A stretch of 64,000 nt of DNA from Pseudomonas sp. N3-W. Lineage in GTDB: Bacteria > Pseudomonadota > Gammaproteobacteria > Pseudomonadales > Pseudomonadaceae. The notes under the pieces were generated by a model. That model made no database searches. It was not told the DNA's origin and worked only from the letters and a program-made list of their open reading frames with translations. A program made the translations under genes and the position numbers. The first letter of the stretch is position 1; every line of letters starts with the position of its first letter. Positions 2,933 through 14,940 of this stretch are shown piece by piece. The stretch lies in the NCBI RefSeq assembly GCF_024970185.1, contig NZ_CP103965.1, forward strand, positions 4,088,001 through 4,152,000, in the 5' to 3' direction.

Positions 2933-4126
2933 TCAGTGAGCGTGTTCAGCCGAGGCCTTACCCAGCTCCGATTTGAGAATGAAGCTGCCGGCGGTGGCGA
3001 CTTGCGTGCCCGGCGCCAAGCCTTCGCTGAGTTCAACCAACCCAGCCGCACGGTTGCCGGTGAGCACCGGTTGCGCCTTGAAGCCGTCATCGGTGCGCAC
3101 GAAAACGGTCGGTTTGCCTTCCACGGTTTGCAGCGCGGTTTCCGGCACCGCGACCTTGACCTGACGGGTTTCGGTGTCGACCTTCACCGTCACGAACAAC
3201 CCCGGCCGCCACGCGCCTTGTGGGTTTTCCAGGGTCACACGGACAGTGGCGGTACGGGTCTGCTCGCCGAGCAAACTGCCGACATAGGCCACGATGCCGG
3301 TGACTTCGGCATTCAGTTCCGTGGCACTGACCGTGACCGTTTTACCCACCCGCACCTGATTCAAATCCTTGGGCGAAACGCCGAACGTCACCCACACCCG
3401 AGACAAGTCCGAAAGCGTGAAGGCGTTGGTGGTTTCGTTGACCACCTCGCCCAGTGCCAGGTGTTTTTCCACCACCACGCCGTCGAACGGCGCACGCAAT
3501 TCGTAGCGATTGCCGCCGCTGGCCAACACGCTGCCGCTCAGCGCACTGATTTTCTGCCGGGCGTTGGCGGAAGCGATTTCAGCCTCCTGCAACGCCTGCC
3601 GCGCCTGAAGGAAATCCTGCTCGGCAGAGATCTTGTCCTGCCACAACTGGCGTTCGCGTTCGTAGGTGGTCCGCGCCAGTTCCAGGCGCCGTTGTGCAGC
3701 GGCCTGTTCGCTGCGCTGATCGGAAATCTGCTGGCTGGCAATCACCGCCAGCAACTGGCCTTTTTTCACCGCTTGCCCGAGGTTGGCGTGCACCGACTCC
3801 ACCACTCCCGCGACACGCGGAACGACGTGGGAGGTGCGGTCTTCGTCGAAACGGATTTCACCGGGAAAGGGCAACGACAGGCTGATGTCTTGCGCACTCG
3901 CCGTGGCCATCTGAATGCCGGCGGCATCGATCTGTTCGACGCTCAATGTCAGGTGCCCTTCTTCACTGTCACCTTCGGCATGCGCGCCTTCATCGCCGTG
4001 ATCGTCACGGCCTTCTTCGGCATGCGCGGCGGCGGTCGGTGCCGAGGTTTTATCCACCCAGAATGAGCCAATGCCGATGCCCGCTGTCAGGGTCAGTACG
4101 GCAACCAGCAGTTGTTTTTTATCCAT
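2933..4126 (-). CDS. czcB: CzcB-type periplasmic adaptor (membrane fusion protein)
   Basis: Links the CzcA pump to the outer-membrane channel. It has 397 residues. It begins MDKKQLLVAVLTLTAGIGIG, a single N-terminal membrane or signal segment. A His/Asp/Glu-rich patch around residues 35-58 (HAEEGRDDHGDEGAHAEG) is typical of metal-binding adaptors of this group. After it come a biotinyl-lipoyl-like half, a coiled-coil hairpin at about residues 120-175 (rich in Q, E, R and A), the second lipoyl half and a beta-barrel. The C-terminus ends HAEHAH-like (ASAEHAH), another possible metal ligand cluster. The GGGAG ribosome site lies 5 bases before the ATG. It sits 66 bp after czcC in the same operon. 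Confidence 0.92.
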   Translation of the reverse strand: MDKKQLLVAVLTLTAGIGIGSFWVDKTSAPTAAAHAEEGRDDHGDEGAHAEGDSEEGHLTLSVEQIDAAGIQMATASAQDISLSLPFPGEIRFDEDRTSHVVPRVAGVVESVHANLGQAVKKGQLLAVIASQQISDQRSEQAAAQRRLELARTTYERERQLWQDKISAEQDFLQARQALQEAEIASANARQKISALSGSVLASGGNRYELRAPFDGVVVEKHLALGEVVNETTNAFTLSDLSRVWVTFGVSPKDLNQVRVGKTVTVSATELNAEVTGIVAYVGSLLGEQTRTATVRVTLENPQGAWRPGLFVTVKVDTETRQVKVAVPETALQTVEGKPTVFVRTDDGFKAQPVLTGNRAAGLVELSEGLAPGTQVATAGSFILKSELGKASAEHAH

Positions 4127-4192
4127 GGAAACTCCCAGTGCGGCTCATGGCATCGCCTGCCGAACCGCCGTTCAAAAAATGCGACGTGAAAT

Positions 4193-5467
4193 TCAAGGGG
4201 TACGGGTCAGCGCCTCGACATCGCCGAAGATTCGTTCGATGCGAACCCAGGCGTCGGTCGCCTCGGCGATGGCCTGGATGTACTGGCTGCGGGCACTGAT
4301 CAAGGTGCGCTGGGCGTCGAGCACGTCGAGAAAGTTGAACTTGCCCATTTCGAAGCCGCGGGTGGCGGTGTCGACGGCGCTTTGCGCGGCGGGCAGGATG
4401 GTCTGGTTGAACGCGCTGACTTCGGTGTTGGCGGTCAGCCATTGATCGAGAGTGGTCTGGGTTTGCGTGCGCAACCGCAGTTCGCTGGCGTTGCGCAGGT
4501 CCCGGGCCTGATCGGCGCGGCGCGCAGCGGCCAGGACATTGCCCTGATTGCGGTTGAACAGCGGAATCGGCATCGACAACCCGACCACGTTCACCCGCTC
4601 GCGCTCCAGTTCACTGTATTGGCTGCCGACGCTGACGGTGAGATCGGGGATGCGCTGTGCCTTCTCCAGACCCAGGCTCGCTTCGCGCTGAGCAATCTGT
4701 AATTCGGCCAGGCGCATCTCTGCGGTTTCACCGATGCGTGTCAGCAGACGTGGCGCAGTCGGCACAGCTGGCATCGCCGGCGGCGCCTGCGCGATGCGAG
4801 CGAACGCCGGCAACGGCGCCCCCATGACCTGAGCCAATTGTTGATACGCGCTGGCTTCGTCGCGCTCGGCACGTCGCCGTTCCAGGCGTACTTCAGAGAG
4901 CTGGACCTGCGCCCGCGTGCCCTCCACTGGCGCCGATTTACCGCTGTCGATGCGCCCTTGGGCCACGCGCACGCCGCGCTCGGCCAAGACCTGAGACTGA
5001 CGGGCCAACTGCAACCGTTGCTGTGCGGTGGCGGCGCCGTAAAACGCCTGAATGACATCGGCACGCAGCACGTTGCGTTTGCGCTCAAGCTCGATGGCGG
5101 CGGCGTCCTGCGCCCGGCTGGCGACGTCGATCCGCGCCCCGCGCTTGCCGCCCAACTCGATCGGCTGATTGAGCATCACAGTGGTCGTGCGTGAATTGCG
5201 TCGTGTGTCCTCCGCTTCCCACGACACCTCAGGGTTGGGCATCAAACCAGCCTGTTGCCGGTCGCCCTGCGCGATGCCGATGTCCCATTGCGCGGCCGCC
5301 AGATCCGGGTTGTTGGCCAACGCCGTTTGCAGGGCCTGATCCATGGTCAGCGTTGTCGAGACCGAGGCGATGGCAAGGCCGGTGCCTGACAAGACGCCAT
5401 ATAACCCGACAACGTGTAAAGACCTGATAATCGTTAAGGGAACGTTAAAACTTCGATGCCAATGCAC
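4193..5467 (-). CDS. czcC: CzcC-type outer-membrane efflux channel (TolC family)
   Basis: Outer-membrane duct of the CzcCBA pump, first gene of the operon. It has 424 residues with two repeats of the outer-membrane-factor fold; the first begins MDQALQTALANNPDLAAAQ and the second near LLTRIGETAEMRLAELQIA. The most upstream usable start is a GTG at 5467 with AAGGA about 9 bases ahead. The N-terminal segment to about residue 36 is hydrophobic and ends ASVST, plausible as a signal peptide. It is divergent from the czcR/czcS genes across a 429 bp regulatory gap. Family assignment is firm; the exact start is less so. Confidence 0.88.
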   Translation of the reverse strand: MHWHRSFNVPLTIIRSLHVVGLYGVLSGTGLAIASVSTTLTMDQALQTALANNPDLAAAQWDIGIAQGDRQQAGLMPNPEVSWEAEDTRRNSRTTTVMLNQPIELGGKRGARIDVASRAQDAAAIELERKRNVLRADVIQAFYGAATAQQRLQLARQSQVLAERGVRVAQGRIDSGKSAPVEGTRAQVQLSEVRLERRRAERDEASAYQQLAQVMGAPLPAFARIAQAPPAMPAVPTAPRLLTRIGETAEMRLAELQIAQREASLGLEKAQRIPDLTVSVGSQYSELERERVNVVGLSMPIPLFNRNQGNVLAAARRADQARDLRNASELRLRTQTQTTLDQWLTANTEVSAFNQTILPAAQSAVDTATRGFEMGKFNFLDVLDAQRTLISARSQYIQAIAEATDAWVRIERIFGDVEALTRTP

Positions 5468-5896
5468 TTTCCTGTTTCCTTCAAAGTACCAAGAGTCGAG
5501 ATGGCATCAATGTAGGGTTTTGCACTTATCGTGAAGGTTGCTGGAACATTACAAATCCGTTATCCACCGGCTTATCGGACTCTTTTGCAATAACATGGCA
5601 AACATGCACAGCCATTTCCGGTTATTAGCAATATGGCGAAACAAATACCAAGACAATATCTGCCGAACAGCACTTGTCGGTTTAATACATCTCTGCTCGC
5701 TGTTCAGCACAGGTAACGCGAACTGCGACATGTTGTCGCAAAGACCGGTCCAGAGGGCTCAACAATCAGCTTCCCGGCTTGACCCTGAAGCCGCTACAGG
5801 CTTTACCGTGGCAACTACTTTCAGCCAGAAGCCCTGATAACAACATCCATTTCTGAATGATTTAATTAATTGTTATTTGAAGAAGGTAAAAACGCC
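5468..5896. other. Divergent regulatory region between czcC and czcR
   Basis: This 429 bp gap holds no convincing gene. It contains a 7-bp inverted repeat TGCGACA/TGTCGCA at 5724-5740, a MerR-type promoter at 5779-5809 (listed separately) and an AT-rich segment (5855-5880) just before the czcR ribosome site. The repeat at 5724-5740 is a possible CzcR or other operator. That role is inferred from position only. Confidence 0.5.
5779..5809 (+). promoter_or_regulatory. MerR-family-type promoter (long 19-bp spacer) upstream of czcR
   Basis: A -35 box TTGACC at 5779-5784 and a -10-like TACCGT at 5804-5809 are separated by 19 bp, longer than the usual 17. The spacer contains a dyad, CCTGAAG and CTACAGG. 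This layout is typical of promoters twisted open by metal-sensing MerR proteins such as CadR, ZntR or CueR. It points rightwards into czcR. No merR-type gene is in the window, so a regulator would act in trans. Confidence 0.55.
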
Positions 5897-6571
5897 ATGC
5901 GAATCCTTGTCGTCGAGGACGAGCTTAAAACTGCCGAATACTTGCATCAGGGATTGACTGAAAGTGGCTATATCGTGGACCGGGCGGCAACGGGCGCTGA
6001 CGGTCTTCATCTCGCGCGTCAACACAGTTACGACCTGATCATCCTGGACGTGAATCTGCCGGAAATGGATGGCTGGGGCGTGCTGCAAAACCTGCGTCAG
6101 AGCAGCAATACCCGGGTAATGATGCTGACCGCTCGCGGGCGGCTGGCGGACAAGATCCGTGGCCTGGACCTGGGCGCCGACGACTATCTGGTCAAGCCGT
6201 TCGAGTTTCCGGAGTTGCTGGCCAGGGTCCGCACCTTGCTGCGGCGCAGTGAACATATTCCGCTGCCGCAGGTGCTGCGGGTAGCCGATCTGGAACTCGA
6301 TCAGGGCCGGCACCGGGCCTTTCGCGGCGAGCAACGCATCGACCTGACGACCAAGGAGTTCGCGCTGCTGCACCTGCTGATGCGCCAGTCCGGGGAAGTG
6401 CTGTCACGCACGCAGATCATCTCGCTGGTCTGGGACATGAATTTCGACTGCGACACCAATGTGGTCGAGGTGTCGATCCGCCGGCTGCGGGCCAAGATCG
6501 ACGACCCGTTCGACAGCAAACTGATCCACACCCTGCGCGGTGTCGGCTATGTACTGGAGGCTCGGGAATGA
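5897..6571 (+). CDS. czcR: Heavy-metal response regulator (OmpR/CzcR/CopR family)
   Basis: DNA-binding response regulator of 224 residues. The receiver domain (1-115) has the acidic pair E7/D8, phospho-acceptor Asp51, Thr78 and Lys100. A winged-helix output domain (about 125-222) carries the motif family of OmpR ([36 protein letters not shown]). The ATG at 5897 is chosen over an upstream in-frame TTG at 5870 because GAAGAAGG lies at normal distance before it and the protein then starts MRILVVEDE. The 3' end overlaps the sensor gene by 4 bp (ATGA). Placement next to czcCBA says it controls that pump. CopR is the alternative name for close relatives. Confidence 0.88.
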
Positions 6572-7968
6572 AGCCCGCCAGCCTGTCGCTGCGCCTCGGC
6601 CTGACGGTAAGCCTGCTCGGCGCGGTGCTGGTGCTGCTGCTGGCGGTACTGGCGTTCTTTGCCTTGAGCCATGAGCTCAATACGCTGTCCAGGGACAGCC
6701 TGGCGACGAAAATGCAGCAGGTCGAGCATAGCCTTTCGCTGTATGAGAACCCGCTCGATATCACCACCGAGCCGCACTCGCTGCTGGATCAGGTGATGGG
6801 CCATGACAACCTCACGCTGACCCTGTACGACCTGAACAATCCACGCACGCCGCTGTTGAAATCCGGCTCGGGACTGCAAGACCCGAGGGTGGAACTGAAG
6901 GCTGCGAACAGCGCTGCCGATACCCTGACGTACTCGCGAAGTACCGATGCCCAGGGGCGTCATTTCCTGACCGCGTCGCGGCTGATCGCCCTGAAAAACG
7001 GCAGCCGTGTATCGGTATTGTTGTCGATGGACAACGCCAATGACGACGCGTTGCTCAGCGCTTATCTGCAATCAACGGTCATTGCCCTGCCCCTGTTGTT
7101 GCTGCTGATCGGCCTCAGCGCCTGGGCGGTGGTGCAACGCGGGCTGGCGCCGTTGCGCGAGTTTCGCAAGGTCGCGGCGAGAATCTCGACCCAGGACCTC
7201 GATCATCGCCTGTCGGTGGACAACATGCCTCAAGAACTCAGCGAACTGGCGCACGGCATCAACTATATGTTGCACCGGCTCGACAGCGGCGTGCAGCAGC
7301 TGTCGCAGTTCTCCGATGACCTGGCCCATGAACTGCGCTCGCCCATCACCAACCTGATGGGCAAGGCGCAGGTGACACTGTCCCGGGAGCGACCGAACGA
7401 GGAATATCGGGCAGCGCTGGAATCCTGCATCGAAGAGCTGGGCCGGGTGAACCGCATCGTCTCGGACATGCTGTTTCTGGCGCAGGTCCGCGACCCGGCA
7501 GCGGGGGTACTGCTGGAACCTGTCTGCATGGAAGATGAAGCGTTGAAAGTCGTCGAGCTGTTTTCACTGTCGGCGGAGGAAAAGCGCATCAGCCTGAACG
7601 TCACCGGCAACGGCCGGACCCTCGGTGACCGCTTGATGATTCAGCGGGCGATTTCCAATCTGCTGTCCAACGCTATCCGCCACTGCCCTGCCGGCGAGGC
7701 CATTTCGGTGATCATCGAACACCGCGCCAACCTCGTTTCGCTGCGAGTCAGCAACCCCGGCGCCGGGATAGAAGCGCAGCATTTGCCCCATGTCTTCGAC
7801 CGTTTCTATCGCGTGGACAACAGCCGTACACGTTCCCAGGGCGGGACCGGACTTGGGCTGGCCATCGTGCGTTCGATCATGAGCCTGCACCAGGGCAGCG
7901 CCGAGGTTCAGAGCACACCGGGCGGCTTGACCGTTTTCCGATTGAGCTTTCCGGGCATGGTTCGTTGA
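6568..7968 (+). CDS. czcS: Heavy-metal sensor histidine kinase (CzcS/CopS/CusS type)
   Basis: Inner-membrane sensor kinase of 466 residues paired with the preceding regulator. Two membrane segments (about 11-33 and 168-190) bracket a periplasmic sensing domain of about 135 residues. HAMP-like sequence follows (191-240). The phosphorylated histidine is His254 in [10 protein letters not shown], the N box is [10 protein letters not shown], and the G boxes are in [18 protein letters not shown] and [10 protein letters not shown]. Translation is coupled to czcR by a 4-bp overlap. The periplasmic part contains few obvious metal ligands, so the sensed metal cannot be read from sequence. Confidence 0.88.
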
Positions 7969-8294
7969 ACCTGTGGCGAAAGCGCTTGCTCCCTCGCCAC
8001 AATCCATCATGTGCGTGACGGCCACCGCCAACGGTGTTTTGTACTTTTAAAGTGGCAAAACCCACACACAAGCTAATAGCTATAACGGTTATGAAGAAAA
8101 GCAAAAACATCAACGCTGATCGCTATTCTTAATATAAAACCACCGTACATAAAACACTTCGCTATCAATCAAAAAATTATCAGAAATTTAATGTCATCGG
8201 GCCACTTCCGGGCATTGCATATTTATCCGCAAATGCTTAACTGCAAACGCTGCCGTTCAAGGCAGCGTTCGCAAATACCACGGAAGGAGTCGCT
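7969..8294. other. Intergenic: REP, AT-rich stretch and leader hairpin before the DUF1843 gene
   Basis: A single REP palindrome (TGTGGCGAAAGCGCTTGCTCC then CTCGCCACA) occupies about 7972-8003. The stretch 8045-8220 is unusually AT-rich for this genome and probably holds the promoter of the following cluster, though I could not choose one -35/-10 pair. A perfect 9-bp hairpin (AACGCTGCC, loop GTTCAA, GGCAGCGTT) spans 8246-8269, 12 bp before the GGAAGGAG ribosome site of the next gene. It lacks a T-run and so is a leader structure rather than a terminator. Confidence 0.6.
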
Positions 8295-8483
8295 ATGAGC
8301 CCCCCAAACTCCCATTCCATCCCGCCCTACGGGACGGCCATTCATGAGGCGATCAAGAAAGACGATCTGCAGCAAATGAAGGCCTTGTTGAAACAACGCG
8401 ATGCATCCAAACCAGAAAACAGTGAGCTTAAATCGGCTTACGAAAAACTGGCTCAGGAAGTTACCCGCCGGGAACAGCGCTAG
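8295..8483 (+). CDS. Small DUF1843-like protein (GDL-type motif, here DDL)
   Basis: A 62-residue soluble protein made almost wholly of one DUF1843-like domain: a PPYG turn, then a helix (IHEAIKKDDLQQMKALLKQ) and a second charged helix ending VTRREQR. The same motif, Y-x-x-x-I-x-x-A-x(3,4)-D-L-x-Q-M/L-K, forms the C-terminus of the next two proteins, where it reads SGDL. Here the glycine is replaced (KDDL). It has a strong GGAAGGAG ribosome site and lies 37 bp before the next gene, so all three are likely one transcript. It could be a substrate or partner of the radical SAM protein downstream; function is not established. Confidence 0.75.
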   Translation: MSPPNSHSIPPYGTAIHEAIKKDDLQQMKALLKQRDASKPENSELKSAYEKLAQEVTRREQR

Positions 8484-8520
8484 TTCTGTTCCCCCCTTAT
8501 TGCAACGGAGGCAATAAATC

Positions 8521-9156
8521 ATGTCTGGTTCTCTTCAACAGAATGTCGGCCTGTTCCCGCTTAGCTATCGAATTGGCACGTCGGCGCCTGGCGCACAAAC
8601 CCTGTCACTGAATCTGTTGGTCTCGACCCCGCAACAGGAGGTCACTGGCACGGCGTCGGTGACGCAGGCGATCAACCCGCCGCTGGACCTGCACTTCGAC
8701 GTCTGGGGTGAGTACAGCTATCTCACCGTCATGTCGCCCGGTGTCAGCAAGATCCTGATCACCGTGGATGGCAATCAGGGCGGTCCGCACTCGAACTCGA
8801 TGACGGGCCTGGAAGTGCGGCTGGTGGTGGGCACGGACTGGCAGAACGGTGTCGCCAACTATCGCTACTTTGACGGGCAACGCTGGCACGAAGTCAACGG
8901 TGTCCCGGCCCAGCAGGTCGAGTCGGTGTCCTCCAGGGTGCAACTGCCGCCGCTGGAGCCCGGGCCGGTCATTCTACCGCACCCGCCGATCATGCCGCTG
9001 TATGCCGCGCCGATTCAGTCCGCGATTGCCAGCGGTGATCTGGCGCAGATGAAAAACCTGGCGAGCCAGGCCAAGCAGCAACTTGATCAGCACCCGCAAT
9101 TGCAGAGCGCGCTGGAAGCCGCCAAGGGCGAAATCAGCCGGCTGGAACGCCGCTGA
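8521..9156 (+). CDS. DUF1842 + DUF1843 two-domain protein, copy 1
   Basis: A 211-residue protein without signal peptide. Residues 1-130 form a beta-rich DUF1842-like domain (LSLNLLVSTPQQEVTG, FDVWGEY, VGTDWQNGVANYRY). A proline-rich linker (about 138-158, LPPLEPGPVILPHPPIMP) leads to a C-terminal DUF1843 helix pair with the GDL motif (LYAAPIQSAIASGDLAQMK, then a helix ending ISRLERR). It is a paralogue of the next gene over its whole length. GGAGG lies 9 bases before the ATG. Domain names are from memory of Pfam. The molecular role is unknown, and the tail looks like a recognition or modification segment carried on a folded domain. Confidence 0.8.
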   Translation: MSGSLQQNVGLFPLSYRIGTSAPGAQTLSLNLLVSTPQQEVTGTASVTQAINPPLDLHFDVWGEYSYLTVMSPGVSKILITVDGNQGGPHSNSMTGLEVRLVVGTDWQNGVANYRYFDGQRWHEVNGVPAQQVESVSSRVQLPPLEPGPVILPHPPIMPLYAAPIQSAIASGDLAQMKNLASQAKQQLDQHPQLQSALEAAKGEISRLERR

Positions 9157-9209
9157 ACCGACCATTGAATGTGTCTGGCTTGTCCTGAACTCAAACAAGG
9201 AGTTGCACC

Positions 9210-9788
9210 ATGTCAATCGGACTTTTTCACACGCGCCTCAACATCAGCAATGGGCTGTTGGGCGCACCGGTTCTGACCCTCGACCTGCTGGTGAATACCG
9301 TCACCAAACAAGTCAGCGGTATCGCCAGTGTGTTTGTCGCCACCTGGCCGACCGTCAACTTTCGCGCCCGTGTCTGGGGTGATTACTCGGAAGCCAAATT
9401 GACCTCCTCGGTGGAGAATCATCTGATCCTCACGCTGGAAGGCAGCCCGAGCGGGCCGCTCAGCCAAATCGCCGAGACCTTCCACCTCAGGGGCATTCTG
9501 GGCGCGGACTGGGCCAGTGGTTTTGTCGACTATCGCTACCAGGAGCAAGGCCAGTGGCACGTGGTCAGGCATGCGGCGGTCAGCCAGGCCTCGACGCAGC
9601 CCGTACAGCCGCCGCACCATGTGCAACCGCTCTACGCCGTCGCAATTCAGCAGGCGCAAACCAGCGGTGATCTGGCGCAACTGAAATCGGTGGTGAGCCA
9701 GGGCGAACAGCAACTGGCCCACGCCGGCACCCTGCGCAGTGCGCTGGATCAGTTGAATGCGGAAATCGCGCGTCTGGAAGCTCGCTAG
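9210..9788 (+). CDS. DUF1842 + DUF1843 two-domain protein, copy 2
   Basis: A 192-residue paralogue of the preceding protein. The DUF1842-like part shares L-x-LLVNT, SGIASV, RVWGDY, LGADWASGFVDYRY. A short proline/histidine linker (TQPVQPPHHVQP) precedes the GDL tail (LYAVAIQQAQTSGDLAQLK, ending IARLEAR). The start has AAGGAG 8 bases upstream. The 53 bp gap to copy 1 and the matching architecture point to a local duplication followed by divergence; the linker is shorter and the first helix has changed (QAQTSGDL versus SAIASGDL). Its position before the radical SAM gene suggests they work together. Confidence 0.8.
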   Translation: MSIGLFHTRLNISNGLLGAPVLTLDLLVNTVTKQVSGIASVFVATWPTVNFRARVWGDYSEAKLTSSVENHLILTLEGSPSGPLSQIAETFHLRGILGADWASGFVDYRYQEQGQWHVVRHAAVSQASTQPVQPPHHVQPLYAVAIQQAQTSGDLAQLKSVVSQGEQQLAHAGTLRSALDQLNAEIARLEAR

Positions 9789-9798
9789 TCAGCGCAAA

Positions 9799-9893
9799 AC
9801 CTGTGGCAGCGAGCCTGCTCGCGAAAGCGCTGGGTCAGTCAACATCAACGTTGAATGCACCGACCCCTTCGCGCGCAAGCTCGCTCCCACATC
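9799..9893. repeat. REPIN between the DUF1842 genes and the radical SAM gene
   Basis: Inverted REP arms TGTGGCAGCGAGCCTGCTCGC and GCGCGCAAGCTCGCTCCCACA enclose a loop with its own palindrome (ATCAACGTTGAT-like). It separates the two DUF1842 genes from the radical SAM gene and could set a transcript-processing point inside the presumed operon. Confidence 0.75.
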
Positions 9894-9928
9894 AGAGGTG
9901 TGCTGACCTCAAAGAGGTGAACACTCCC

Positions 9929-10003
9929 ATGGATTCGTGCCGCGCACATGGCTGTGCGCAAGGATCTCCCCCATGTCAGACAATCGCCCCGCTCGCTACC
10001 TGA
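9929..10003 (+). CDS. Possible 24-codon Cys-containing leader ORF overlapping the radical SAM start
   Basis: An ATG at 9929 follows a very good ribosome site (GAGGTGA at 9914-9920, 8-base spacer). It opens 24 codons starting MDSCRAHGCA and ending QTIAPLAT, with three cysteines (positions 4, 9 and 16). It ends with TGA at 10001-10003, 31 bases inside the radical SAM gene in another frame. It may be a translational-coupling leader or a tiny peptide. It is too short for codon statistics to decide, and conservation is the needed test. Confidence 0.35.
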   Translation: MDSCRAHGCAQGSPPCQTIAPLAT

Positions 10004-11436
10004 CCGACACCGACCTCAAACGCTACGTGCCGGTGCATGTGGTCTGGGAAATCACCCTGGCCTGCGACCTCAAATGCCTGCATTGCGGCTCACGCGCCGG
10101 CCACCGACGCCCCGATGAACTGAACACCCGTGAATGCCTGGACGTCATCGATGCACTGGCCGCGCTCGGCACCCGCGAGATCACCCTGATCGGTGGCGAG
10201 GCCTATTTGCGCAAGGACTGGACCCAACTGATCAAGGCCATTCATGACCATGGCATGTACTGCGCCATCCAGACCGGTGGCCGCAACCTGACGCCGGCAA
10301 AAATGCAGGCGGCAGTGGATGCCGGGCTAAATGGCGTCGGTGTTTCCCTCGATGGCCTGGCACCGCTGCACGATGCGGTGCGCAATGTGCCGGGCTCGTT
10401 CGACAAGGCCGTGGACACCCTGCGCCGCGCCAAGGCATCGGGGCTCGCGGTAAGCGTCAACACCCAGATCGGCGCCGCCACATTGCCCGATTTGCCGGAA
10501 CTGATGGACCTGATCATCGGCCTTGGCGCCACCCACTGGCAGATCCAGCTCACGGTGGCGATGGGCAATGCGGTCGATCACCCGGAGCTGCTGCTGCAGC
10601 CTTACCAATTGCTGGAAGTCATGCCACTGCTGGCGCGTCTGTACCGCGAAGGGGTTGATCGTGGCCTGCTGATGAACGTGGGCAACAACATCGGTTACTA
10701 CGGTCCGTATGAACACATGTGGCGCGGTTTCGGCGACGAGCGCGTGCACTGGAGCGGCTGCGCGGCAGGTCAAACGGTACTCGCACTGGAAGCCGACGGC
10801 ACGGTAAAGGGCTGCCCTTCCCTGGCCACCGTCGGGTTTTCCGGCGGCAATGTGCGCAACATGAGCCTGCACGACATCTGGCATTACAGCGAAGGCATCC
10901 ACTTTGGCCGCCTGCGCTCGGTCGATGATCTGTGGGGCTATTGTCGCGGCTGCTATTACAACGATGTCTGCCGTGGCGGCTGCACCTGGACGTCGCACTC
11001 GTTGCTGGGCAAACCGGGCAACAATCCGTATTGCCATTACCGCGCTTTGGATCTGCAAAAACGCGGGCTGCGCGAGCGCATCGTCAAGCTCGAAGACGCG
11101 GCGAAGGCGTCGTTCGCGGTGGGACGTTTCGACCTGATTACCGAACGCATCGACACCGGCGAGACGGTCCACAGCGTCAGCGACAGCGGTCAGGTGATCA
11201 AGCTGGCCTGGGCGAATCAGGGTCAGAAAACGCCGGACGAAGGCCGTATCCCACCGGTGCTGGCGCTGTGTCGGGCCTGCTTGCAGTACATCCACGCCCA
11301 CGAAGTGACCTGCCCGCACTGCGCTGCCGATGTCGCCAGCGCCGAAGCCGGGCATCAGGCCGATCGTGCCAGGCAGCAGGCAATCATGAACACGCTGACG
11401 GGGTTGTTGGGGTTGCCGCAGAACAGGTTGATGTAG
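9973..11436 (+). CDS. Radical SAM/SPASM maturase-like protein with C-terminal zinc ribbon
   Basis: A 487-residue radical SAM enzyme. The 4Fe-4S cluster motif is C31-x3-C35-x2-C38 (CDLKCLHC), followed by IGGEAYLRKD, the SAM-binding 'GGE' strand. A SPASM-type auxiliary-cluster region has cysteines at about 263, 281, 324, 327, 333, 337 and 354 (GC, GCP, YCRGC, DVCRGGC, YCHY). After a linker comes an unusual tail with C433-x2-C436 and C447-x2-C450 (CRAC/CPHC), a zinc-ribbon-like knuckle. The ATG at 9973 has AAGGA upstream and is preferred to an in-frame GTG at 9937. Relatives mature peptides or quinohaem-type proteins; I recall an NCBI family described as GDL-motif-peptide-associated, which fits the upstream genes. 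Substrate and chemistry are inferred. Confidence 0.85.
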   Translation: MSDNRPARYLTDTDLKRYVPVHVVWEITLACDLKCLHCGSRAGHRRPDELNTRECLDVIDALAALGTREITLIGGEAYLRKDWTQLIKAIHDHGMYCAIQTGGRNLTPAKMQAAVDAGLNGVGVSLDGLAPLHDAVRNVPGSFDKAVDTLRRAKASGLAVSVNTQIGAATLPDLPELMDLIIGLGATHWQIQLTVAMGNAVDHPELLLQPYQLLEVMPLLARLYREGVDRGLLMNVGNNIGYYGPYEHMWRGFGDERVHWSGCAAGQTVLALEADGTVKGCPSLATVGFSGGNVRNMSLHDIWHYSEGIHFGRLRSVDDLWGYCRGCYYNDVCRGGCTWTSHSLLGKPGNNPYCHYRALDLQKRGLRERIVKLEDAAKASFAVGRFDLITERIDTGETVHSVSDSGQVIKLAWANQGQKTPDEGRIPPVLALCRACLQYIHAHEVTCPHCAADVASAEAGHQADRARQQAIMNTLTGLLGLPQNRLM

Positions 11437-11461: not shown

Positions 11462-13453
11462 CCTGTGGGAGCGGGCTTGCTCGCGATGGGGCAGTGTCAG
11501 TCATCATCATTGCCAATGACACACCGCCATCGCGGGCAAGCCCGGCGCCCACAGTTGATCTTCAGTGAACACAACATTGGCGTTCGACCGCGATCCACTG
11601 TGGGAGCGGGCTTGCCCGCGATGGGGCCGTGTCAGCCACCATCACTGCTAATGACCCACCGCTATCGCGGGTAAGCCCGACTCCCACAGTTGATCTTCAG
11701 TGAACACAAAATTGGCGCTCGACAGTGATCCAGTGTGGGAGCGGGCTTGCCCGCGATGGGGCCGTGTCAGTCACCATCATTGCCAAATGACCCACCGCTA
11801 TCGCGGGCAAGCCCGGCTCCCACAGTGGATCTTCAGTGAACACAAAATTGGCACTCGGCAGAGATCCAGTGTGGGAGCGGGCTTGCCCGCGATGGGGCCG
11901 TGTCAGTCACCATCCCTGCTGAATGACCCACCGCCATCGCGGGCAAGCCCGGCTCCCACAGTTGATCTTCAGCGAGCACAAAATTGGTGTTCGACCGCGA
12001 TCCAGTGTGGGAGCGGGCTTGTCCGCGATGGGGCCGTGTCAGTCATCATCCTTGCTGATGATCCACCGCTATCGCGGGCAAGCCCGGCTCCCACAGTTGA
12101 TCTTCAGTGAACACAAAATGGGTGTTCGACAGCGATCCAGTGTGGGAGCGAGCTTGCTCGCGATGGGGCCGTGTCAGTCACCATCACTGCCAATGACACA
12201 CCGCTATCGCGGGCAAGCCCGGCTCCCACAGTTGATCTTCAGTGAACACAAAATTGGCGCTCGGCAGAGATCCAGTGTGGGAGCGAGCCTGCCCGCGATG
12301 GGGCCGTGTCAGCCACCATCACTGCCAATGACCCACCGCTATCGCGGGCAAGCCCGGCTCCCACAGGGGATTTTCAGTGAACACAAGATCGGCGTTCGAC
12401 AGCGATCCACTGTGGGAGCGGGCTTGCCCGCGATGGGGCCGTGTCAGTCACCATCATTGCCAAATGACCCACCGCTATCGCGGGCAAGCCCGGCTCCCAC
12501 AGTTGATTTTCAGTGAACACAAAATTGGTGTTCGATAGCGATCCACTGTGGGAGCGAGCTTGCTCGCGATGGGGCAGTGCCAGGCACCACCATTGCCCAA
12601 TGACCCACCGCTATCGCGGGCAAGCCCGGCTCCCACAGTTGATCTTCAGTGAACACAAAGTTGGCGATCCACACAGATCCAATGTGGGAGCGAGCTTGCT
12701 CGCGATGGGGCCGTGTCAGCCACCATCACTGCTAATGACCCAACGCCATCGCGGGCAAGCCCGGCTCCCACAGTTGATCTTCAGTGAACACAAAAATGGG
12801 TGTTCGGCAGCGATCCAGTGTGGGAGCGGGCTTGCTCGCGATGGGGCCGTGTCAGTCACCATCCTTGCTGATGATCCACCGCTATCGCGGGCAAGCCCGG
12901 CTCCCACAGTTGATCTTCAGTGAACACAAAATCGGCGTTCCACACAGATCCAGTGTGGGAGCGAGCTTGCTCGCGATGGGGCCGTGCCAGGTACCATCCT
13001 TGCCAAATGACCCACCGCTATCGCGGGCAAGCCCGGCTCCCACAGTTGATCTTCAGTGAACACAAAAATGGGTGTTCGGCAGCGATCCAGTGTGGGAGCG
13101 GGCTTGCCCGCGATGGGGCCGTGTCAGCCACCATCACTGCTAATGACCCACCGCTATCGCGGGCAAGCCCGGCTCCCACAGTTGATCCTCAGCGAGCACA
13201 AAATCGGTGTTCTACCGCTATCCACTGTGGGAGCGGGCTTGCCCGCGATGGGGCCGTGTCAGTCACCATCATTGCTGAATGACCCACCGCCATCGCGGGC
13301 AAGCCCGGCTCCCACAGAGATCTTCAGTGAATACAAAAATTGGCGCTCGGCAGAGATCCAGTGTGGGAGCGGGCTTGCCCGCGATGGGGCCGTGTCAGTC
13401 ACCATCACTGCCAATGACACACCGCCATCGCGGGCAAGCCCGGCTCCCACAGT
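11462..13453. repeat. Tandem array of 15 REPIN units, 135-137 bp period
   Basis: Units begin with TGTGGGAGCG at 11464, 11599, 11734, 11870, 12006, 12141, 12276, 12411, 12547, 12683, 12819, 12954, 13091, 13226 and 13362. In each, a left arm (GGAGCGGGCTTGCCCGCGAT) pairs with a right arm (ATCGCGGGCAAGCCCGGCTC, then CCACA) across a loop of about 40 bp. A conserved spacer of about 44 bp (TTGATCTTCAGTGAACACAA core) joins units. Many reading frames stay open because the period is near 135, but they carry no gene signals. No transposase (RAYT) gene is in the window. Confidence 0.95.
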
Positions 13454-13554
13454 TTTTGCGGCTTAACTGACGAATCCTTAACTGGCCCGCCGCCATCCTC
13501 CTGTGTATTAATGCGCGAATCCCTGCCCAGCCCTCAGCGGAGCACAGTCGCTCA

Positions 13555-14940
13555 ATGACTCAGCCAGCCGTCCTGCCCTCCCTGCCCGCCGCCAATAAAC
13601 TCACACCCCGTGAATTGCGTGGCCTGCTGGCGATTCTGGTGTCCATCGCCCTGGCGGTACTCGACACCGCCATCGCCAACACTGCATTGCCGACCATTGC
13701 CGCCGACCTGCACGCCTCTCCCGCCGCGTCAGTGTGGATCATCAACGCCTATCAATTGGCGGCCGTGGCGACGTTGCTGCCGTTTGCCTCGCTGGGCAAT
13801 ATCGTTGGGCATCGCAAGGTGTTTCTCGGCGGCATCATTTTGTTTGTGGTGTCGTCGGCACTGTGCGCACTGGCCTGGTCGCTGCCGACGCTGACGGTCG
13901 CCCGTGTGCTCCAAGGCGTCGGGGCGAGCATGATCATGAGTGTCAACGCGGCGCTGATCAGCCTGATCTTCCCGCCCGAACGCCTGGGTCGCGGCCTGGG
14001 TATGAATGCGTTGGTGGTCGGCACGTGTTTCGCCGCCGGCCCGACCATTGCCTCGCTGGTGTTGTCGGTGGCCAACTGGCCGTGGCTGTTTGCGATCAAC
14101 TTGCCGCTCGGCCTGTTTGCGCTGTTCTTCGCCTGGAGCTCGCTGCCGGTCGGCAAGCCGCAAGCCATCAAATTCGAACGAATGACCGCACTGCTCAATG
14201 TCGTCACGTTCAGTGCGTTGATCTTTGGCTTGGGTCAGGCGGCGCAGCTGGGTTCGATGACCAGCGTGTTGATTGCCCTGGCGGTATTTGTGATTGCAGG
14301 CACCGTGATGGTGCGCCGTGAGGCCGGGCATCCGTCGCCGATGTTTCCCCTCGATCTGCTCAAGCGGCCGTTGTTTGCCCTGTCGGCGCTGACGGCATTT
14401 TGTTCGTTCACCGCTCAAGGGTTGGCGTTTGTCTCGCTGCCATTTTTCTTCGAAACGACACTGGGGCGCGATCCGATCCAGACCGGCTTCCTGATGACCC
14501 CGTGGTCGGTGGTGGTCGCCGCCATCGCGCCGGTCGCCGGGCGCCTGTCCGACACCTATGCACCGGGCCTGCTGGGTGGGATCGGCCTGGCGGTACTGAG
14601 CGCGGGCATGGTCTCGCTGGCACTGCTGCCCGGCGATCCCGGTGCACTGGACATCGTGATCCGCATGATCATCTGCGGCATCGGCTTCGGTTTTTTCCAG
14701 GCACCCAACCAGAAAGCCCTGATGACCAGCGCCCCCCGTTCACGCTCCAGCGGCGCCAGCGGCACCATTGCCATGGCGCGGTTGATCGGTCAGGCGACCG
14801 GGGCGGCGCTGGTGGCGTTGAGCTTCGGCATTGCCGGCCGTCATGGCCCGGTGTTGGCGTTGAGCATCGGAGCCGGGTTTGCGGCGGTGGGCAGCGTGGC
14901 GAGCGGGTTGCGGCTGGTGACGCGCAATACCGTGGTGTGA
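13555..14940 (+). CDS. MFS drug/multidrug exporter, DHA2 type
   Basis: Proton-driven inner-membrane exporter of 461 residues. Repeated hydrophobic helices run from residue 22 to the end. The early motif LAVLDTAIANTALPTIAADL is the DHA2-type 'LDxTIVNVALP' signature with conserved Asp in the first helix. G-x-x-x-G-H-R-K (GNIVGHRKVF) is the loop 2-3 motif A of the superfamily, and RVLQGVGASM matches motif B/C. It is about the size of 14-helix family members. The start is the ATG at 13555 with a weak GCGGAG site. It follows the REPIN array directly (102 bp), and no regulator is adjacent. Substrates cannot be told from sequence. Confidence 0.85.
   Translation: MTQPAVLPSLPAANKLTPRELRGLLAILVSIALAVLDTAIANTALPTIAADLHASPAASVWIINAYQLAAVATLLPFASLGNIVGHRKVFLGGIILFVVSSALCALAWSLPTLTVARVLQGVGASMIMSVNAALISLIFPPERLGRGLGMNALVVGTCFAAGPTIASLVLSVANWPWLFAINLPLGLFALFFAWSSLPVGKPQAIKFERMTALLNVVTFSALIFGLGQAAQLGSMTSVLIALAVFVIAGTVMVRREAGHPSPMFPLDLLKRPLFALSALTAFCSFTAQGLAFVSLPFFFETTLGRDPIQTGFLMTPWSVVVAAIAPVAGRLSDTYAPGLLGGIGLAVLSAGMVSLALLPGDPGALDIVIRMIICGIGFGFFQAPNQKALMTSAPRSRSSGASGTIAMARLIGQATGAALVALSFGIAGRHGPVLALSIGAGFAAVGSVASGLRLVTRNTVV

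Follow-up and report, generated by a model that had tools for sequence, protein, structure and literature searches.

A four-gene locus on the forward strand of a 64,000-nucleotide stretch of Pseudomonas sp. N3-W DNA (contig NZ_CP103965.1, positions 4,088,001 to 4,152,000; the window, in which all coordinates below are counted) is best read, from its sequence, as a leader-less tyramine splicing system acting on three proteins. The proposed substrates are protein 1 (8295..8483, 62 amino acids), which is a DUF1843 domain alone, and proteins 2 (8521..9156, 211 amino acids) and 3 (9210..9788, 192 amino acids), which are both DUF1842-DUF1843 proteins. They are followed by a radical S-adenosylmethionine (SAM)/SPASM enzyme (9973..11436), which has 487 amino acids from its ATG and 499 in the longest frame, opened by a GTG at 9937. 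Pfam found DUF1843 in proteins 1, 2, and 3 with E values of 4.1e-10, 2.2e-18, and 6.5e-19 and both Radical_SAM and SPASM in the enzyme, so that the gene content given in an earlier note on this DNA, made without database searches, was borne out by Pfam and NCBIfam. The enzyme probably excises tyramine at a conserved tyrosine lying in an X-Y-[G/A] site, namely, P-Y-G at Tyr12 of protein 1 (8325..8333), L-Y-A at Tyr161 of protein 2 (8998..9006), and L-Y-A at Tyr142 of protein 3 (9630..9638), all three being on the list of X-Y-[G/A] sites and assigned from the aligned tyrosine column. We infer this reaction from the kinship of the enzyme family with TIGR04103, the sequence context of a Nostoc precursor, the chemistry of the splicease PlpX, and the resemblance of one site to PlpXY tags.

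The enzyme is a full member of family TIGR03913, with a score of 1038.3 bits against a curated cut-off of 591.75. This is the NCBI family that the earlier note had mentioned as named for a "GDL motif peptide"; it exists, as "GDL motif peptide-associated", and an earlier source name for an enzyme of this type reads "Y-X(10)_GDL-associated radical SAM protein", indicating that NCBI had seen both the pairing and the tyrosine. Three small proteins with Y-x(10)-GDL adjoin the enzyme in the window, protein 1 having D-D-L where G-D-L is expected. The TIGR03913 entry, in the part available, names no reaction; what we propose here is a reaction and a target residue. The second-best family was TIGR04103 (nif11-class peptide radical SAM maturase 3), at 429.9 bits, and the next scored 158. 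We take TIGR04103 to be the family of PlpX, its accession presumably corresponding to IPR026482.

TIGR03913 and TIGR04103 clustered together, apart from other SPASM families, in two trees, one built with 18 outgroup rows and the other with 11 (support, 98/93 and 99/97), in which PlpX itself was not among the rows and the positions of the Aureibacter and Tropicibacter rows were unsure. The three cysteines of the radical SAM cluster motif, C31-x3-C35-x2-C38 (10063..10086), and the seven of the SPASM region (Cys 263, 281, 324, 327, 333, 337, and 354; 10759..11034; Pfam SPASM E value, 4.1e-7) are common to all 19 TIGR03913 and all 13 TIGR04103 rows. Across the two families, 132 columns were near-invariant and identical, 58 of them being shared by no more than 2 of the 11 outgroup rows. 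The four cysteines of a zinc-ribbon-like C-terminal part (C433-x2-C436 and C447-x2-C450, 11269..11322) occurred in all 19 TIGR03913 rows, in Aureibacter, and in none of the 13 TIGR04103 rows. A TIGR04103 enzyme from Nostoc was 44.7% identical to the window enzyme over 82% of the query. It follows a Nif11 precursor whose C-terminal end, SIALYGLPPELF, offers an X-Y-G context, and it precedes a 71-amino-acid gene without a family match. Searching solved structures with the window enzyme returned only distant SPASM or radical SAM enzymes (five matches, the best being SkfB), and when viral contigs were scanned with the Nostoc enzyme, 20 loci matched over short stretches, at 23 to 38% identity. Close to the splicease clade stands an enzyme encoded on a plasmid of Tropicibacter oceani (L138:7734-9356), which carries zinc-ribbon-type cysteine pairs at its N terminus; its cluster holds further radical SAM genes and trypsin-like and M23 peptidase genes. 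VVLYGADLQ occurs in the protein at L138:11498-12328.

PlpX (IPR026482) is reported to excise tyramine from Xaa-Tyr-Gly together with its partner, PlpY (PMC11002830). The window system resembles the PlpXY splicease and its spliceotides from Pleurocapsa in that the enzymes form sister clades, share the same radical SAM and SPASM cysteines, and stand beside a substrate with X-Y-G (in the window this is P-Y-G of protein 1, proteins 2 and 3 having L-Y-A). In addition, the segment PPIMPLYAAPI of protein 2 resembles the PlpXY tags GGPIRPLYGLPI and PLFPIRPGYGLPI, the latter of which PlpXY accepted (PMC10533398). In contrast to PlpXY substrates, the window proteins carry neither a Nif11 nor a nitrile hydratase-related (NHLP) leader, no leader family having been found in proteins 1 to 3 by Pfam and NCBIfam. 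The window locus further differs from PlpXY in having no PlpY-like gene detectable with a weak probe, alanine after the tyrosine at two of its three sites, the extra zinc-ribbon part, folded carrier domains, and no recurrent exporter or protease. The enzyme would be a relative of the PlpX splicease that needs no leader; it would cut part of the tyrosine from the backbone of each of the three proteins and leave a reactive group behind. For the excised unit, C8H9NO, the computed mass is 135.0684 Da, whereas PMC10533398 prints a loss of 135.0757; excision would bring the monoisotopic masses of untagged proteins 1, 2, and 3, lacking the initiator methionine, from 6954.62 to 6819.55, from 22583.58 to 22448.51, and from 20666.80 to 20531.73. 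Helices 1 and 2 of DUF1843, together with the GDL that lies between them, would serve as a docking element in place of the leader peptide, and the zinc-ribbon extension may substitute for PlpY.

Among 85 non-redundant DUF1843 domains (less than 80% identity), collected with a profile that was seeded with tyrosine-bearing domains and may therefore miss strongly altered copies, the tyrosine just before helix 1, counted from its aligned column, was the single fully constant column (85 of 85). It was preceded by leucine (49), proline (29), or methionine (7) and followed by glycine (45), alanine (38), or methionine (2), with glycine in all 29 cases in which proline preceded it. Exact GDL, on the other hand, occurred in 53 domains, the aligned columns reaching 89% for Gly, 80% for Asp, and 83% for Leu. 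The motif Y-x3-I-x2-A-x4-D-L-x-Q-[ML]-K, which opens with this tyrosine, was found in all three window proteins, as the earlier note had claimed, but its description there as C-terminal does not hold for protein 1, where it begins at residue 12.

An AlphaFold model of protein 2 (mean predicted local distance difference test [pLDDT] score, 73.4) placed the tyrosine near the end of a low-confidence stretch: the DUF1842 barrel was mostly confident, residues 136 to 163 fell below a pLDDT of 50, and Tyr161 lies at the end of that stretch, immediately ahead of a helix (162 to 171). GDL (residues 172 to 174, 9034..9042) separates this helix from the next (174 to 189), and we read it as a structural or docking element. 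Protein 2 has a solved relative, the DUF1842 domain-containing protein Q63NT7 (PDB 8t0b, 8t1m, and 8t1n; E value, 1.3e-45), described as a beta-barrel with a flexible linker of about 25 residues, in which the tail is preceded directly by the assigned proteolytic site (PMC10994174). The model agrees with this relative, since the linker of the latter is flexible and the proteolytic cut lies just before the tail. In the available text, the report on these structures states no function and discusses no radical SAM enzyme (PMC10994174).

Loci that have lost either the enzyme or GDL separate the two candidate residues. Eight of 149 Pseudomonas genomes had a DUF1842 pair without a DUF1843 match, their tails scoring weakly with the profile, and the enzyme was found in none of the eight (E values up to 1e-60). 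No enzyme remnant was found in the DNA flanking the pair in these genomes, of which 7 to 11.5 kb was covered (in G422 the contig begins about 1 kb before the pair), nor was a DUF1843-only gene found at the eight loci. In all eight protein 2 orthologues histidine replaces the tyrosine, and the start of the tail is kept, as G-D-L in four, G-D-V in three, and Q-D-V in one. The protein 3 orthologues lack the site and retain little of the tail. The same histidine occurs in two database proteins from Pseudomonas (P0311 and P0312), known here from their protein sequences alone. Conversely, in Chromobacterium amazonense, C. sinusclupearum, and C. alticapitis the GDL hairpins have decayed while the enzyme and three X-Y-[G/A] sites per locus are kept. 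In place of the separate small gene, these three loci have a P-Y-G stretch fronting the first DUF1842 protein; in Chromobacterium loci L046, L047, and L050 the first substrate thus bears a pair of sites, a front one of P-Y-G and a back one of L/M-Y-A. Because of the histidine tails without enzyme and the Chromobacterium loci with decayed GDL, we conclude that the tyrosine site tracks the enzyme and GDL does not. Genomes with the enzyme also hold, at other places, seven DUF1842 copies (L181, L183, L184, L193, L196, L198, and L199) that stop shortly past the barrel and lack a DUF1843-type tail, three of them with R-Y-A within the barrel, indicating that the site is not needed by DUF1842 itself. 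L193, L196, and L198 are lone tail-less Chromobacterium proteins encoded away from the enzyme locus. A DUF1842 protein of C. violaceum, CV_0868, is reported to be raised with iron and to adjoin a putative SodB gene (PMC4216352).

A survey of the co-occurrence of enzyme and DUF1843, proposed in the earlier note, upheld the association. Scanning one genome per species, we kept the best 80 of 181 enzyme relatives (43 from Pseudomonas, the others from Chromobacterium, Burkholderia and kin, Alphaproteobacteria, and Acidobacteria). The enzyme was preceded by one or more DUF1843 domains at 81 of 81 loci, these 80 and the window. Since it recurs at all of them, from Pseudomonas to Acidobacteria, this gene arrangement is not due to chance. 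With an Aureibacter and an Azospirillum plasmid added, the count was 83 of 83, with DUF1843 always on the strand of the enzyme; it excludes the loci of Nostoc, Tropicibacter, and Agathobacter, which are more distant. The gap from the last DUF1843 frame to the enzyme had a median of 140 bases (range, 17 to 693), and there were three DUF1843 frames at 68 loci, two at 9, four at 2, and one at 4. The Aureibacter plasmid enzyme scored 534.9 bits, under the TIGR03913 cut-off; on this plasmid of A. tunicatorum, a member of the Bacteroidota, the genes lie in series (L137:5658-9986): one annotated as rimK, for an S6 glutamate ligase, three that encode DUF1843 alone, that of the enzyme, and one for a class I methyltransferase.

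The association also held when read from the side of the substrates. Fourteen of the 149 Pseudomonas genomes had DUF1843 over the cut-off, in three copies each, and all 14 had the enzyme, which was absent from the tested Pseudomonas genomes without DUF1843 over the cut-off (sets of 12 and 9). The tailed DUF1842 pair was present in 7 of 65 Burkholderia genomes, all 7 with the enzyme, and the enzyme was not found in 13 other Burkholderia genomes tested, three of which have one tail-less DUF1842 copy. In a phylum sample of 299 genomes, two had the enzyme over the cut-off, both with DUF1843. Another genome of this sample, G120, without enzyme over the cut-off, gave a partial DUF1843 match that exceeds the Pfam cut-off (27.2 bits, positions 13 to 50, in a 753-amino-acid frame; G120:C8:24526-24639), and four others without it, G129, G152, G306, and G361, gave partial matches below the Pfam cut-off; the frames are 742 to 774 amino acids long, and we take these matches for chance. 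The earlier note had seen no protease or exporter adjacent to the genes, and the wider comparison agrees: in 20 diverse loci (frames of at least 80 amino acids) no exporter or protease family stood beside the enzyme in more than 5, the commonest, in 5, being an ATP-binding cassette ATPase. The window does have a major facilitator superfamily (MFS) efflux gene 2.1 kb downstream of the locus and parts of a metal efflux system upstream.

Several observations weigh against tyramine excision. The residue after the tyrosine, glycine in PlpX substrates, is alanine at two of the three window sites and in 38 of the 85 domains, and methionine in two; at locus L056 the only site is P-M-Y-A. A weak probe, one 71-amino-acid Nostoc protein taken for PlpY by its position alone, matched no gene in the 83 loci (best E value, 1). 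Alanine and the missing PlpY are, on the sequence evidence, the weak points of the proposal. The window enzyme does not reach the curated TIGR04103 cut-off of 725 bits, and its kinship with PlpX is drawn through TIGR04103 as a proxy. PlpXY was reported to be choosy, refusing most tagged FtsZ variants, including GGPIRPLYGLPI at the single place tried (PMC10533398). In trees, both enzyme-less orthologues fell with enzyme-bearing Pseudomonas and Chromobacterium rows (for protein 2 with moderate support, 87/86); because of this placement, we count the change from tyrosine to histidine as probably one loss, a single evolutionary event. Finally, the tail helices in the model of protein 2 had low confidence (pLDDT of about 50 to 60), and the tyrosine could be conserved for structural reasons.

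The enzyme might instead target the same tyrosine with other chemistry, such as tyrosine decarboxylation, a side-chain cross-link, or epimerization, given that the TIGR03913 line has diverged from PlpX, has no detected partner, and often faces alanine after the tyrosine. The alanine in 38 domains and the lack of a hit with the weak PlpY probe both speak for this, and related SPASM enzymes do differ in what they do to tyrosine, as with decarboxylation in mycofactocin biosynthesis (PMC8326336). The identity to the Nostoc TIGR04103 enzyme, the 132 near-invariant columns shared with its family, and the X-Y-G context of the Nostoc precursor, however, speak for the chemistry of PlpX, and we regard a different reaction as unlikely. 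A more distant idea is that the three proteins assemble themselves into a complex or shell, the enzyme having some other target or merely tuning assembly. A 2009 proposal of this kind, based on the repetition of paralogues within operons, is cited in PMC10994174, and the three DUF1843-bearing frames at 68 of 83 loci are in keeping with it. Recombinant Q63NT7, though, showed no higher assembly, being monodisperse and probably a monomer (PMC10994174); as the protein was made in E. coli, presumably without the enzyme, this result would concern the unmodified form. We consider a shell very improbable.

Still less credible is that the GDL stretch is the site of recognition and modification, as the earlier note had suggested. 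The NCBI family is named after GDL and the helix residues around it are conserved; GDL may be a docking element. Against it as the modified site stand its variability (exact in 53 of 85 domains), its retention in the enzyme-less tails (G-D-L, G-D-V, or Q-D-V), its decay in three Chromobacterium loci that have the enzyme, and its position between two helices; on these grounds we rejected it. The tyrosine that opens the motif behaves as the target, and the GDL reading is probably wrong. The other suggestion of the earlier note, that DUF1842 is a carrier domain, is plausible.

If tyramine is excised as we propose, the product would not leave the cell; it would be an electrophilic alpha-ketoamide carried by a flexible linker, which in proteins 2 and 3 is attached to a beta-barrel. 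Spliceotides are reported to inhibit proteases (PMC10373908, PMC11002830, and PMC11117315). Our best guess for the role of the modified proteins, which we hold to be doubtful, is that they are a covalent trap for a stationary-phase protease. The fuller picture, a non-secreted splicing system without leader or PlpY that forms a single alpha-keto-beta-residue in each of the three proteins, from proline (P-Y-G) or leucine (L-Y-A), on helical tails and barrels, as traps for intracellular proteases in stationary phase, is equally tentative. Transcripts for DUF1843 (one gene) and DUF1842 (two genes) in C. subtsugae were raised by log2 values of 4.9 to 5.3 from low to high quorum, and the enzyme gene was called coexpressed, the operon being assigned there to a different radical SAM system, XYE (PMC12114271). 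BTH_II2182-2184 of Burkholderia thailandensis were among the most strongly induced stationary-phase transcripts, with values of 8.0, 7.7, and 7.5 (PMC12322963).

Leader-independent tyramine splicing of this kind, if confirmed, would supply a reaction and a target residue both for an NCBI family named only by its neighbors and for a pair of Pfam domains whose function is unknown. It would link backbone editing to genes strongly induced at stationary phase in B. thailandensis and at quorum in C. subtsugae, lead one to expect electrophilic backbone ketoamides inside ordinary soil bacteria, provide a leader-free splicing tag, and extend a known kind of protein editing. Such a system may already have been reported: going by its title, Richter et al. 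2024 (Chem Sci) reportedly concerns leader-independent tyramine splicing of protein substrates with a conserved helix, which would fit DUF1843. In the parts available, the literature naming DUF1842 or DUF1843 made no tie to tyramine splicing, and among the splicease, spliceotide, and tyramine splicing papers found, no title was on DUF1843.

The spacer between the protein 3 and enzyme genes contains an inverted repeat (9798..9900, forward strand; RNA fold, -48.2 kcal/mol) resembling repetitive extragenic palindromic (REP) elements, which may hold enzyme expression down in comparison with that of the substrates. This inverted pair is related to the unit of an array directly 3' of the enzyme gene (11464-13454), in which a 136-bp REP-type unit is repeated in tandem (14.7 copies, 89% match). 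Upstream of the locus (2933-7968) lie genes for a heavy-metal response regulator and a sensor kinase, over their NCBIfam cut-offs and divergent from genes resembling a resistance-nodulation-division adaptor and an outer membrane factor. Past the repeat array, the MFS gene (13555-14940) is of the DHA2-like efflux type, its score of 211.4 bits narrowly missing the TIGR00711 cut-off of 230.2.

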